From NCBI GenBank assembly GCA_946482045.1, contig CAMLPZ010000020.1, positions 1 to 27,586 on the forward strand: DNA of 27,586 nt, given 5' to 3'. Source of the DNA: an uncultured Asticcacaulis sp. Lineage in GTDB: Bacteria > Pseudomonadota > Alphaproteobacteria > Caulobacterales > Caulobacteraceae. A program made the translations under genes and the position numbers. Positions within the stretch are counted from its first letter, which is position 1. Every line of letters starts with the position of its first letter. The notes beneath the pieces were generated by a model that saw only the letters and a list, made by a program, of their open reading frames with translations, made no database searches and was not told the DNA's origin. Shown here one piece after another: positions 17,606 through 20,842 of this stretch.

Positions 17606-18565
17606 TTATCCCTGCGCCTGTTCCGAAGGCGGACTATCCTGAAACACGCTCACGTGCGGTTCGGCAAGTCCCCTCGGATCAGGATGGATGATTATATCGG
17701 CATTCGGGTAGACCTCAATGAGCCTGTTTTCCGCCGCGATGATGATCCTGTGGGCAGCGTCGAGCGTGAGTGTCGGATCAAGCTCGACATGCATCTGGAT
17801 GAGGACGTACGGCCCAGCCTGGCGGGTACGCAGGTCGTGGACACCAAGAACCTGCGGATCTTCAAGCGTCAACCTGCGGATCGCCTCAACGTCCTTGTCG
17901 TCAAGAGCCTTATCCATAAGATGACCTGACGCCTCACGCAGGACGCCGACGGCGCCCCAGACGAACCACGCGGCCATCAATACGCCGGCAATGGCGTCGA
18001 ACACATATAGGCCCAGCGCCGCCAGGCCGACACCGATGATCGCAACGATATTGGATACGAAATCAGTCACGTAGTGCATCCGGTCACCGTGCACCGCCAC
18101 GGAAGCTTCGGCACGCAGGGCCCGGTTCTGGAACCAGACCAGGATGGCCGTAAGAAGGATCGACAGCACGAGTACGCCCAAGGACAGGCCCGATGCGCGT
18201 GCCGGGTGCGGGTTGGCGAAGTCGCGGACGCATTCCTGCAGGATGATGGCCGCCGAAGCAAAGACCAGCGCCGCCTGGAAAAGGGCGCTGAAGGCTTCGG
18301 CCTTGCCGTGGCCGAAGGGATGCTCCTTGTCCGGCGGCGTACGGGCATAGCGGACGGCGAACAGGGTCGCGACCGAGGCCAGCAGGTCAAGGCCTGAATC
18401 GGTCAGCGACGCCAGGATCGACGGCGATCCGGACAGATAAAGCACACCAGTCTTCGCAACCGTCAGGACACTTGCGACGCCCACGGAGAGGATCGACGCC
18501 AGCATGACCGGCGAAATTGTCCGTGAATGTTGGCTCCGTGGTGCGTTCATGTCCTTGTGTAACAT
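17606..18565 (-). CDS. Cation diffusion facilitator (FieF-type divalent metal efflux)
   Basis: This inner-membrane proton antiporter exports Zn2+, Fe2+ or similar metals. The product of about 319 residues has six membrane segments. The metal site residues are D56 and D60 in SLTDSGLDLLAS (segment 2) and H164 and D168 in HYVTDFVSN (segment 5), the same DD-HD set as E. coli FieF. The loop motif HPFGHGKAEAFSAL is present. The cytoplasmic domain (from about residue 215) contains QMHVELDPTLTLDAAHRI. The ATG at 18565 has GGAAAAG upstream; another ATG at 18550 is possible, while a TTG at 18583 seems unlikely. It lies 17 bases upstream of the fzlA-like gene on the same strand. Confidence 0.92.
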   Translation of the reverse strand: MLHKDMNAPRSQHSRTISPVMLASILSVGVASVLTVAKTGVLYLSGSPSILASLTDSGLDLLASVATLFAVRYARTPPDKEHPFGHGKAEAFSALFQAALVFASAAIILQECVRDFANPHPARASGLSLGVLVLSILLTAILVWFQNRALRAEASVAVHGDRMHYVTDFVSNIVAIIGVGLAALGLYVFDAIAGVLMAAWFVWGAVGVLREASGHLMDKALDDKDVEAIRRLTLEDPQVLGVHDLRTRQAGPYVLIQMHVELDPTLTLDAAHRIIIAAENRLIEVYPNADIIIHPDPRGLAEPHVSVFQDSPPSEQAQG

Positions 18566-18753
18566 GGCTTTTCCAGCAGGCAAACAGCTTCAGTTTGCAC
18601 TGCAAAATGAGGCGCCGTCGAAACTGTTAATAAAAGGTAAATAGCGCGTGTCAAACCTGGTCAAATCGGCATAGGGTGCAACGCAGAATCAATCTTGACA
18701 ATAAACCGCCGTATTCGCGGAGTCTTGTCATGGTGAACATCGAAGGTGTGCCC
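18566..18753. promoter_or_regulatory. Divergent promoter region with a 13-bp palindrome
   Basis: This 188-base gap separates the metal efflux gene from the citrate-synthase-like gene. TTTGCA-C-TGCAAA (18594-18606) is a perfect dyad 29 bases upstream of the efflux gene start and is a candidate operator. TTGACA at 18695-18700 matches a -35 for the plus-strand gene, but no good -10 follows at 16-18 bases. No match to a known metal-regulator box was recognised. Confidence 0.45.
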
Positions 18754-19992
18754 ATGTCTCGTATCTGGATCAGCCGCACGGAGGCGCTCCAACGTCTCGA
18801 AGTCAAGCCGCAGACGCTCTATGCCTATGTGAGCCGTCAGCGCATCGCCGCCAAGAGCGACCCCAGCCATCCGCGCAAGAGCCTTTACGCGCTGGACGAT
18901 GTCGAGCGGCTGTCGCGCCGCGCCCCCGGCCGCATGCCGGGGCAGCGTGCCGGCCAACCCATGCTACCGGCGGTGCCAGCGCTCAGTGGCGGGACCATTA
19001 CACGTGGCGAAGCGGCGATCGACACCGAGATATCGCTGACCCTCAACGGGCGTCACTATTACCGCGGCCGCGACTGCGTCGCCTTGGCCGACAGTGAGAA
19101 TTTCGAAGCCGTCGCCGCCCTGCTGTGGCAAAGCGCCAGCCACAACCCGTTCGGCCCCCTGAAACCGCGTCCGGACGTCAACTTCCCAGGTGGACCGCGC
19201 CTGCGCGTCTTTTCGGTCCTGAGCCGCCGCATCGAGGAGGACGCCCAGCCGGACATCAATCCGGACCGCGACCTGAATCTTGAAGCCGCCAGCCTGATCA
19301 ATGAAATGGTCGACTCGGTCACCAATGGCGGACCGCGCCTGTTTTTCCATCAGCGCCTGGCGCGCGTGTGGAAGGTCTATGAAAACCGCGACGTCGACCT
19401 GCTGCGCCGTGCCCTGGTCCTGTCGGCCGATGTAGGTCTTGACGAATCGACCCTGGCCGTGCGCAGCGCCGCCGCTTCGATGGGGCCGCTGGCCGTGCCG
19501 CTCATGGCTGGCTTCGCGACCGTCATGGGTCCACGTCTCGGCGCCCGCATCTCGCGCGCCGAACTGTATGTCACCCAGGTCCGCCGCTCAGGCAATCCGC
19601 AACTGGTCGCCCGCACTTTGCTCAACCAGGGCCTTGAGCTGCCGGGCTTTGAAAAGGACCCGGCGCCATCGGAATATTTACGCGCGCGCAATCTGATCGA
19701 TGCTGCACCGCACATGGGCGAAGACCTGAAAACCATACTGAAGGTCGGCGAGGACATGACGGGTCAACCGGTTGGTATGTCGCTTGCGCTCGCCCTAATT
19801 GGCCGCCACCTCGACCTGCCGCGCGAGGCCCCCGTGACACTTTATGGCCTTGGCCGCAGCGCCGGCTGGCTGGCCCACGCCATCGAGCAGGTTCACACCG
19901 GCGCCGCGCCCAAGGCCCGCCTGCGCTATATCGGTGTCGCCCCCGCCCTGCCCGATCCCGAGTTCGACGAAAATATTGCAGTTGCTAATTAA
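18754..19992 (+). CDS. Citrate-synthase-like protein with N-terminal HTH domain, catalytic residues lost
   Basis: Residues 1-55 form a MerR-like or excisionase-like helix-turn-helix (WISRTEALQRLEVKPQTLYAYVSR, then LYALDDVERLSRR). From about residue 83 to the end is a citrate synthase fold, with the CoA-side motif LGRSAGWLAHAIEQ intact at 366-379. The active site is not. The HGGAN histidine is L262 (GPRLGARIS), the GFGH histidine is K301 (LPGFEKDPAPSEYLRAR), the NVDF aspartate is G341 (QPVGMSLAL), and the ADH histidine is V227 (SADVGLDES). It therefore cannot work as a normal citrate synthase and may be a CoA-ester sensor or regulator. The ATG at 18754 has GAAGG upstream and fits the family start; the ATG at 18730 with GGAG is an alternative. 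uppP follows after 52 bases. Confidence 0.85.
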   Translation: MSRIWISRTEALQRLEVKPQTLYAYVSRQRIAAKSDPSHPRKSLYALDDVERLSRRAPGRMPGQRAGQPMLPAVPALSGGTITRGEAAIDTEISLTLNGRHYYRGRDCVALADSENFEAVAALLWQSASHNPFGPLKPRPDVNFPGGPRLRVFSVLSRRIEEDAQPDINPDRDLNLEAASLINEMVDSVTNGGPRLFFHQRLARVWKVYENRDVDLLRRALVLSADVGLDESTLAVRSAAASMGPLAVPLMAGFATVMGPRLGARISRAELYVTQVRRSGNPQLVARTLLNQGLELPGFEKDPAPSEYLRARNLIDAAPHMGEDLKTILKVGEDMTGQPVGMSLALALIGRHLDLPREAPVTLYGLGRSAGWLAHAIEQVHTGAAPKARLRYIGVAPALPDPEFDENIAVAN

Positions 19993-20044: not shown

Positions 20045-20842
20045 ATGGACTATCTGATTGCGGCGTTTTTAGGCTTCGTCGAAGGCATGACCGAGTTCCT
20101 GCCGGTGTCCTCGACGGGCCACCTGCTCCTGCTCACCCACTTCCTCAAATTCGGAACGACGGGCAAGACCTTCGAAGTCCTGATCCAGTTGGGCGCCGTC
20201 CTGGCCCTGCTGAGCCTTTATTTTAACCGCCTCTGGAACGTCGTCATCACCCTGCCGGCCGAACCGAAATCCCGGGGCTTCGTGATTTCGGTTCTCGTCG
20301 CCTTTCTGCCGGCCATGGTTCTGGGTGTGCTGCTGCACGACTTCATCAAGGGCGTGCTGTTCGAAACGCCGCAGGTCATCTGTATTAGCCTGATCGTCGG
20401 CGGCATCCTGTTGTGGGCGGTCGACAAGTACGCGCCGACGCCGACCAAGGACGACGCGATGCGCCTCGACTGGAAGACGGCCCTGACCATCGGCCTGTTC
20501 CAGTGCCTGGCCATGATCCCCGGGATGTCGCGCTCGGGCTCGACCCTGATCGGCGCCATGCTCTGCAAGGTCGACAAGAAGGCGGCCGCGGAGTTTTCGT
20601 TCTTCCTGGCCATGCCGACCATGGCCGGCGCCTTTGCCTATGACGTCTTCAAAACCTACAAGCAGATGGATTTCACCGATATTGGCCTGGTGGCCGTCGG
20701 CTTCATCGCCGCGTTCGTGACGGCCTTGCTGGTCGTCAAGGCGCTGCTCGATTTTGTCTCGAAGCACGGTTATGGCATCTTTGCGGTGTGGCGCGTGGCG
20801 GTCGGCGTGATCGGCCTGGTGCTGTTGCAGCTCGGGTTTTAA
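20045..20842 (+). CDS. uppP: Undecaprenyl-diphosphatase UppP (BacA)
   Basis: This inner-membrane enzyme removes a phosphate from undecaprenyl diphosphate, recycling the lipid carrier for peptidoglycan and surface glycans. It also confers bacitracin tolerance. The 265-residue protein has the two family signatures: FVEGMTEFLPVSSTGH (E13, E17, S22, S23, H26) and IPGMSRSGSTLIGA (S162, R163, S164). Several hydrophobic segments fit the known eight-helix fold. The ATG at 20045 is preceded by AAGGGG five bases upstream. It lies close after the citrate-synthase-like gene and converges on the NDUFA9-like epimerase, with a strong terminator between. Confidence 0.97.
   Translation: MDYLIAAFLGFVEGMTEFLPVSSTGHLLLLTHFLKFGTTGKTFEVLIQLGAVLALLSLYFNRLWNVVITLPAEPKSRGFVISVLVAFLPAMVLGVLLHDFIKGVLFETPQVICISLIVGGILLWAVDKYAPTPTKDDAMRLDWKTALTIGLFQCLAMIPGMSRSGSTLIGAMLCKVDKKAAAEFSFFLAMPTMAGAFAYDVFKTYKQMDFTDIGLVAVGFIAAFVTALLVVKALLDFVSKHGYGIFAVWRVAVGVIGLVLLQLGF

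Follow-up and report, generated by a model that had tools for sequence, protein, structure and literature searches.

The window analyzed here is a 27,586-nucleotide stretch of DNA from an uncultured Asticcacaulis species (contig CAMLPZ010000020.1). It carries a gene whose product joins a predicted N-terminal winged helix-turn-helix (HTH) to a citrate synthase (CS) fold (Table 1). The CS part is recognized by PF00285, and the protein belongs to a family, here termed HTH-CS, whose members have an N-terminal HTH, a CS fold, and similarity over the full length. HTH_17 was detected in 50 of 62 relatives. The predicted shape of the HTH may be that of the MerR/excisionase winged HTHs (Xis, BldC, SoxR, CarH, and GlnR); an HTH profile had no match among PDB sequences up to an E value of 0.1, and Foldseek with the HTH alone as query gave no match at E ≤ 0.001.

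Table 1. Features of the HTH-CS locus, numbered from the first nucleotide of the window
Feature	Position	Strand	Basis
Cation efflux (CDF) gene, divergent, on the far side of the candidate operator	17606..18583	-	family model
Candidate operator ATCAATCTTGAC, starting 66 bp before the ATG	18688..18699	+	upstream motif comparison
HTH-CS fusion gene, 412 amino acids	18754..19992	+	open reading frame
Winged HTH, residues 5-56	18766..18921	+	predicted
CS fold, residues 93-397	19030..19944	+	fold and Pfam PF00285
Val227 codon, aligned with GltA His229	19432..19434	+	alignment
Leu262 codon, aligned with catalytic GltA His264	19537..19539	+	alignment
Lys301 codon, aligned with catalytic GltA His305	19654..19656	+	alignment
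Arg310 codon, aligned with GltA Arg314, kept	19681..19683	+	alignment
Ser343 codon, aligned with catalytic GltA Asp362	19780..19782	+	alignment
Arg368 codon, aligned with GltA Arg387, kept	19855..19857	+	alignment
uppP (undecaprenyl-diphosphate phosphatase), 52 bp downstream of the HTH-CS gene	20045..20842	+	family model

The catalytic triad of the window protein is lost

Residue positions were read from an alignment with Escherichia coli GltA. None of the catalytic residues His, His, and Asp is present in the window protein, which has Leu262, Lys301, and Ser343 in their place. The original prediction of an HTH-fused, catalytically dead citrate synthase thus holds for the fusion and for the missing triad, including Leu262, Lys301, and the Val227 that replaces a further His; its placement of the Asp position at Gly341 was wrong. 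Judged by these residues, the protein cannot be an ordinary citrate synthase, in line with the original prediction. The GRSAGWLAHAIEQ motif on the CoA side is retained, as are two arginines, Arg310 and Arg368, which we take to correspond to the substrate arginines of GltA. This retention could also be expected of an enzyme with an altered mechanism or substrate (e.g., a lyase) that still uses its CoA and dicarboxylate pockets. In eroded relatives, however, the triad positions vary freely (Leu/Met/Ala/Pro, Ala/Lys/Asp/Ser, and Ser/Thr/Ala/Gly), unlike those of a new active site, and we regard an altered enzyme as very improbable.

A catalytically complete paralog, which the original prediction had suggested looking for, exists in the nearest relative: a PF00285 search of the Asticcacaulis solisilvae genome found three genes, encoding an intact GltA, a second CS-type protein, and HTH-CS, and the same search of Asticcacaulis machinosus found a GltA-type gene and HTH-CS only. 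Citrate synthases are dimers, and with an intact GltA in the A. solisilvae genome, an inactive subunit might pair with GltA or a different CS and so regulate metabolism at the protein level, its HTH serving as a protein-binding module. This would leave unexplained both the palindrome upstream of the gene and the very high conservation of the HTH described below, and we consider it unlikely.

Triad loss is correlated with the absence of a citB neighbor

HTH-CS proteins occur across the alpha- and betaproteobacteria (Rhizobium, Bosea, Devosia, Hyphomonas, Caulobacter, Brevundimonas, Duganella, and others). Plasmid-borne copies account for 87 records, below 60% identity, with Agrobacterium, Roseomonas, Burkholderia, Ensifer, and others among the matches listed. 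The names among the matches listed are citrate synthase, citrate/2-methylcitrate synthase, or citrate synthase family protein. Two sets of loci were compared. The named loci are the best 80 of 539 relatives and partially overlap with the second set, 150 Caulobacteraceae loci. The latter are all matches listed from a sample of 199 genomes, weaker matches lying outside the set; a match at E ≤ 1e-10 was found in 166 of these genomes, although some may be ordinary citrate synthases. Within this set, 24 loci are labeled Asticcacaulis-type by their kinship with named loci. As a further correction to the original prediction, the window gene is one member of a large family, in which the triad is intact at 92 of the 150 Caulobacteraceae loci.

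The commonest layout is an intact HTH-CS gene beside a divergent, catalytic, citB-like CS gene, found upstream at 84/150 Caulobacteraceae loci. The triad is intact in 83 of these 84 HTH-CS proteins, and the remaining one has Gln for one His. Among the 66 loci without a citB neighbor, at least one triad residue is lost in 57 and all three in 45; the other nine are intact, three of them so close to a contig edge that the neighbor cannot be judged (L213, L236, and L288, with less than 300 bp of upstream sequence; 63 loci remain assessable). The named loci behave similarly, with an intact triad in 43/44 that have a citB neighbor and an eroded one in 28/36 that do not. The eight intact named loci without this neighbor include four from Duganella, and because such proteins exist, the absence of citB alone does not imply erosion. 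The citB-like neighbor, a common but not universal trait of the family, is absent from the window and from the Asticcacaulis-type loci. The citB-like partner in Ensifer (L002, 3839-4927) has NVEF where GltA has NVDF, with Glu at the catalytic Asp position.

A quick IQ-TREE tree of 85 rows, built without bootstrap, groups the loci without citB into one 47-row clade (SH-aLRT 95) with four exceptions, of which three are the contig-edge loci. Nested within it is a 35-row clade (SH-aLRT 100) in which His262 is missing throughout. Since three of its members (L164, L165, and L167) still have His301 and Asp343, the triad was lost stepwise. The last losses probably occurred separately in the Asticcacaulis and Brevundimonas-like lines, at whose fork the branching is not settled by this tree. 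In two Caulobacteraceae metagenome-assembled genomes (L048 and L053), queG, fzlA, the CDF exporter gene, and a downstream SDR-type gene enclose citB and an intact HTH-CS gene, a gene order like that of the window, which fits the loss of citB in place. Three genomes have two listed HTH-CS copies each (L196/L205 in G030, L199/L236 in G077, and L264/L283 in G105), of which L283 has an intact triad, no citB neighbor, and no exact upstream site. Given these genomes, there may instead have been an old duplication with differential loss.

The gene is under purifying selection and its HTH is the better-conserved domain

With its catalytic residues gone, the gene might be taken for a decaying pseudogene. 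Comparison with A. solisilvae gave a dN of 0.013, a dS of 0.549, and an omega of 0.023, with zero amino acid changes in the HTH. Across 23 Asticcacaulis-type pairs with an overall dS under 0.6, omega was 0.008 to 0.093; it rose to 0.34 in more distant pairs, in which dS is nearly saturated. Because the omega values of the close pairs are low, indicating purifying selection, the window gene is not a pseudogene. The place of the gene and its upstream site are conserved as well, and we give decay practically no weight.

In the eroded clade, conservation is higher in the HTH than in the CS domain, which supports the original interpretation. Mean pairwise identities for the HTH (residues 5-52) and the CS domain (residues 93-397) were 0.885 and 0.736 for the 24 Asticcacaulis-type loci, 0.745 and 0.515 for 30 other eroded loci, and 0.70 and 0.66 for 84 citB-paired proteins. 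The stretch QTLYAYVSR in the second HTH helix is nearly unchanged in all 31 aligned HTH domains. Among 56 eroded proteins (L166, one of the 57 eroded loci, has a shifted C terminus and was left out of this count), 18 of 57 HTH columns and 34 of 305 CS columns deviate in at most one protein. These columns include Arg310 and Arg368, both kept in 56/56, and no triad residue. This pattern is that expected of a DNA-binding protein with a relaxed catalytic site and a retained anion-binding site. Retention of the two arginines makes ligand sensing by the CS fold plausible; both may also have a structural role.

A near-palindrome lies upstream of HTH-CS genes

Side-by-side reading of upstream regions revealed a near-palindrome, ATCAATCTTGAT, before HTH-CS genes. 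The stretch that the original prediction had named for DNA binding (18566-18753) does contain this family-wide element, as a ATCAATCTTGAY site whose right arm, TTGAC, is less symmetric. Counting both orientations, the core TCAATCTTGA was found in 109/150 Caulobacteraceae upstream windows (approximately 43.5 kb), with 3 copies in the remaining 797 kb of these loci. It is present at 60/80 named loci, with 62 copies in 23 kb upstream and 2 in 1.27 Mb elsewhere. The citB-paired loci have it in 81/84 cases, starting 26 or 28 bp before the HTH-CS gene in 46 of the 81 and followed by a further ATCAA half-site. A single longer palindrome, with the consensus aataaTCAATCTTGATtatc, is found at 22/24 Asticcacaulis-type loci. 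At L279 a site 33 bp before the HTH-CS match was masked by a start set too far upstream; L252, with the same predicted length and no site found, may likewise have a mis-set start.

The palindrome might also be part of the promoter, or be bound by another regulator, with a different role for the HTH-CS protein. Several observations speak for this or against the specificity of the site. The site overlaps the likely promoter region. The 12-mer has 14 copies in 20 genomes without detected HTH-CS (3 for a reversed-pattern control), and 12 inspected copies in such genomes have no citrate synthase alongside. For the window taken by itself, 11 of 100 shuffles give as good a match at one mismatch. Finally, the exact site is missing from 30 eroded loci outside Asticcacaulis that have kept the HTH. 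Given these observations, the evidence lies in the position of the word and not in the word itself. By position, the site is found almost exclusively at HTH-CS loci, whether in Duganella, Rhizobium, or Asticcacaulis. The citB-paired genomes have few copies away from the locus: the 12-mer was at HTH-CS in all ten tested, with two other copies in all ten together. We consider a site for another regulator, or a promoter element, rather unlikely.

Five of these 30 loci, all partly eroded (L156, L164, L167, L168, and L169), have one-mismatch versions of the site, as intermediates would have. No shared palindrome that could represent an altered operator was found in the 30 eroded loci without the exact site; 16 of them have a GCGACAA-type stretch, for which the largest count in 10 shuffles was 11. 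Brevundimonas loci such as L022, L024, L029, L030, and L057 have kept the HTH and the uppP neighbor but lack the site at their own promoter, and share a GCGACAA-type stretch in its stead.

A wide Asticcacaulis regulon was considered and rejected. ATCAATCTTGAY has 2 to 6 copies per genome, 32 in 8 genomes (0 for the reversed pattern); of the 30 copies inspected, 6 belong to HTH-CS loci, 19 fall within a long open reading frame, and 5 (L109, L112, L122, L126, and L130) are at or near gene ends. The HTH-CS sites of G003 and G011 begin with G and so are missed by this pattern. In two Asticcacaulis species (L122 and L126, position 1501) the 12-mer precedes the same short gene, whose protein starts MPELSLP, and in three (L115, L118, and L129) a copy falls within genes of one kind, which look photolyase-like by eye.

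uppP and a cation exporter gene flank eroded HTH-CS genes

The names QueG, FzlA, CDF, and UppP were checked with family models, which confirmed uppP and fzlA as the neighbors that had been predicted. A uppP gene lies within 400 bp downstream on the same strand at 47/56 assessable eroded loci, compared with 7/82 citB-paired loci and 0/9 intact loci without citB. The CDF exporter gene is divergent upstream of HTH-CS at 46 of 57 eroded loci. Neither a terminator nor a sigma-70-like promoter was found in the 52-bp gap before uppP by a scan that is weak in this group; the same scan placed one of each inside the HTH-CS gene, which is chance level. With its conserved downstream position, short gap, and no terminator found, uppP would be the likeliest coregulated gene. 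It is a possible cotranscribed target, and the divergent CDF gene is a possible second one.

Proposed role of the HTH-CS protein

We consider it reasonably likely that the window protein evolved from citrate synthase into a transcription factor that acts locally and regulates itself, with an oxaloacetate/citrate- or CoA-type ligand sensed by the former enzyme domain. The triad loss, the family-wide upstream motif, and the gene order, which is correlated with that loss, are firm findings, alongside purifying selection and the predicted fold. What we infer for it comprises DNA binding, dimerization, the ligand, the direction of regulation, and uppP as a target. The protein would form a dimer, as citrate synthases do, and its HTH would bind ATCAA-TC-TTGAY, the near-palindrome that precedes its gene, and mainly regulate that gene; in Asticcacaulis the downstream uppP would also be affected, and perhaps the divergent cation exporter gene. 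In citB-paired relatives, the site between the two divergent genes would allow HTH-CS to control citB in response to oxaloacetate/citrate or acetyl-CoA/CoA. In the lineage of the window, without citB, the active site would have decayed while the HTH, the site, and the two substrate arginines stayed, leaving a ligand-binding, noncatalytic sensor. Where databases label an enzyme, the gene probably encodes a regulator that senses a metabolite.

This raises a broader possibility, which we put forward tentatively and hold at somewhat below even chances. HTH-CS proteins may be widespread, apparently undescribed transcription factors that control entry into the tricarboxylic acid cycle via essentially one operator per genome, with a CS sensor descended from the very enzyme controlled. 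In the Asticcacaulis/Brevundimonas lineage, the sensor would have outlived its target, lost catalysis stepwise, and perhaps acquired a new connection through which a central-metabolite signal reaches the cell wall lipid carrier gene uppP. If the HTH-CS protein is a regulator, the possibility that central carbon metabolites are linked to the recycling of undecaprenyl phosphate would become directly testable, with a candidate operator on hand for electrophoretic mobility shift and reporter assays. Genes annotated as citrate or 2-methylcitrate synthase could then be regulators, which matters for metabolic models. The family would also offer a graded natural series in which the active site ranges from intact to fully dead while the second helix of the HTH stays almost constant.

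Relation to known systems

Caulobacter crescentus has a CS-like paralog, CitC (CCNA_03758), adjoining the functional CS gene citB (CCNA_03757) with consecutive tags; according to the part of the source available, CitB complements E. coli gltA and CitC does not (PMC7083601). The CCNA_03757 promoter served as a negative control for IscR binding in the accessible part of another study (PMC11475020). Gene order and the citB-paired Caulobacteraceae loci suggest that CitC is probably the ortholog of the window protein, although those loci, unlike the window gene, retain the triad. A regulatory role could explain the failure of CitC as a citrate synthase. The term "helix-turn-helix" is absent from the text of PMC7083601 that was searched. 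The original prediction had pointed to catalysis-independent cell cycle roles of Caulobacter CS paralogs near fzlA, a parallel that does not hold. In the portion of that paper available, the catalysis-independent role was shown for CitA and termed unique to it relative to CitB and GltA (PMC7083601). Because the published role is CitA's, proximity to fzlA gives no support for cell cycle moonlighting. We found no tie between the window protein and FzlA here beyond their neighborhood, and an open-access literature search with fzlA listed nothing on the HTH-CS gene. Likewise, full-text searches of an open-access collection, which leaves out subscription papers, listed no paper whose title or abstract opening describes an HTH-citrate synthase regulator or the upstream site.

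The window protein differs from the catalytic citrate and 2-methylcitrate synthases GltA, CitA, and PrpC in its lack of the triad and its added N-terminal HTH. Its predicted HTH may have the shape seen in the MerR/excisionase proteins, from which it differs in that its sensor part is a citrate synthase fold. Transcription factors derived from enzymes include BirA, PutA, the ROK repressors, and MocR, none of which, to our knowledge, uses this fold. Like the window protein, they combine a DNA-binding head with a metabolite-binding fold that is, or once was, catalytic, and, if our interpretation is correct, citrate synthase would join the enzyme folds that have been turned into transcription factors.
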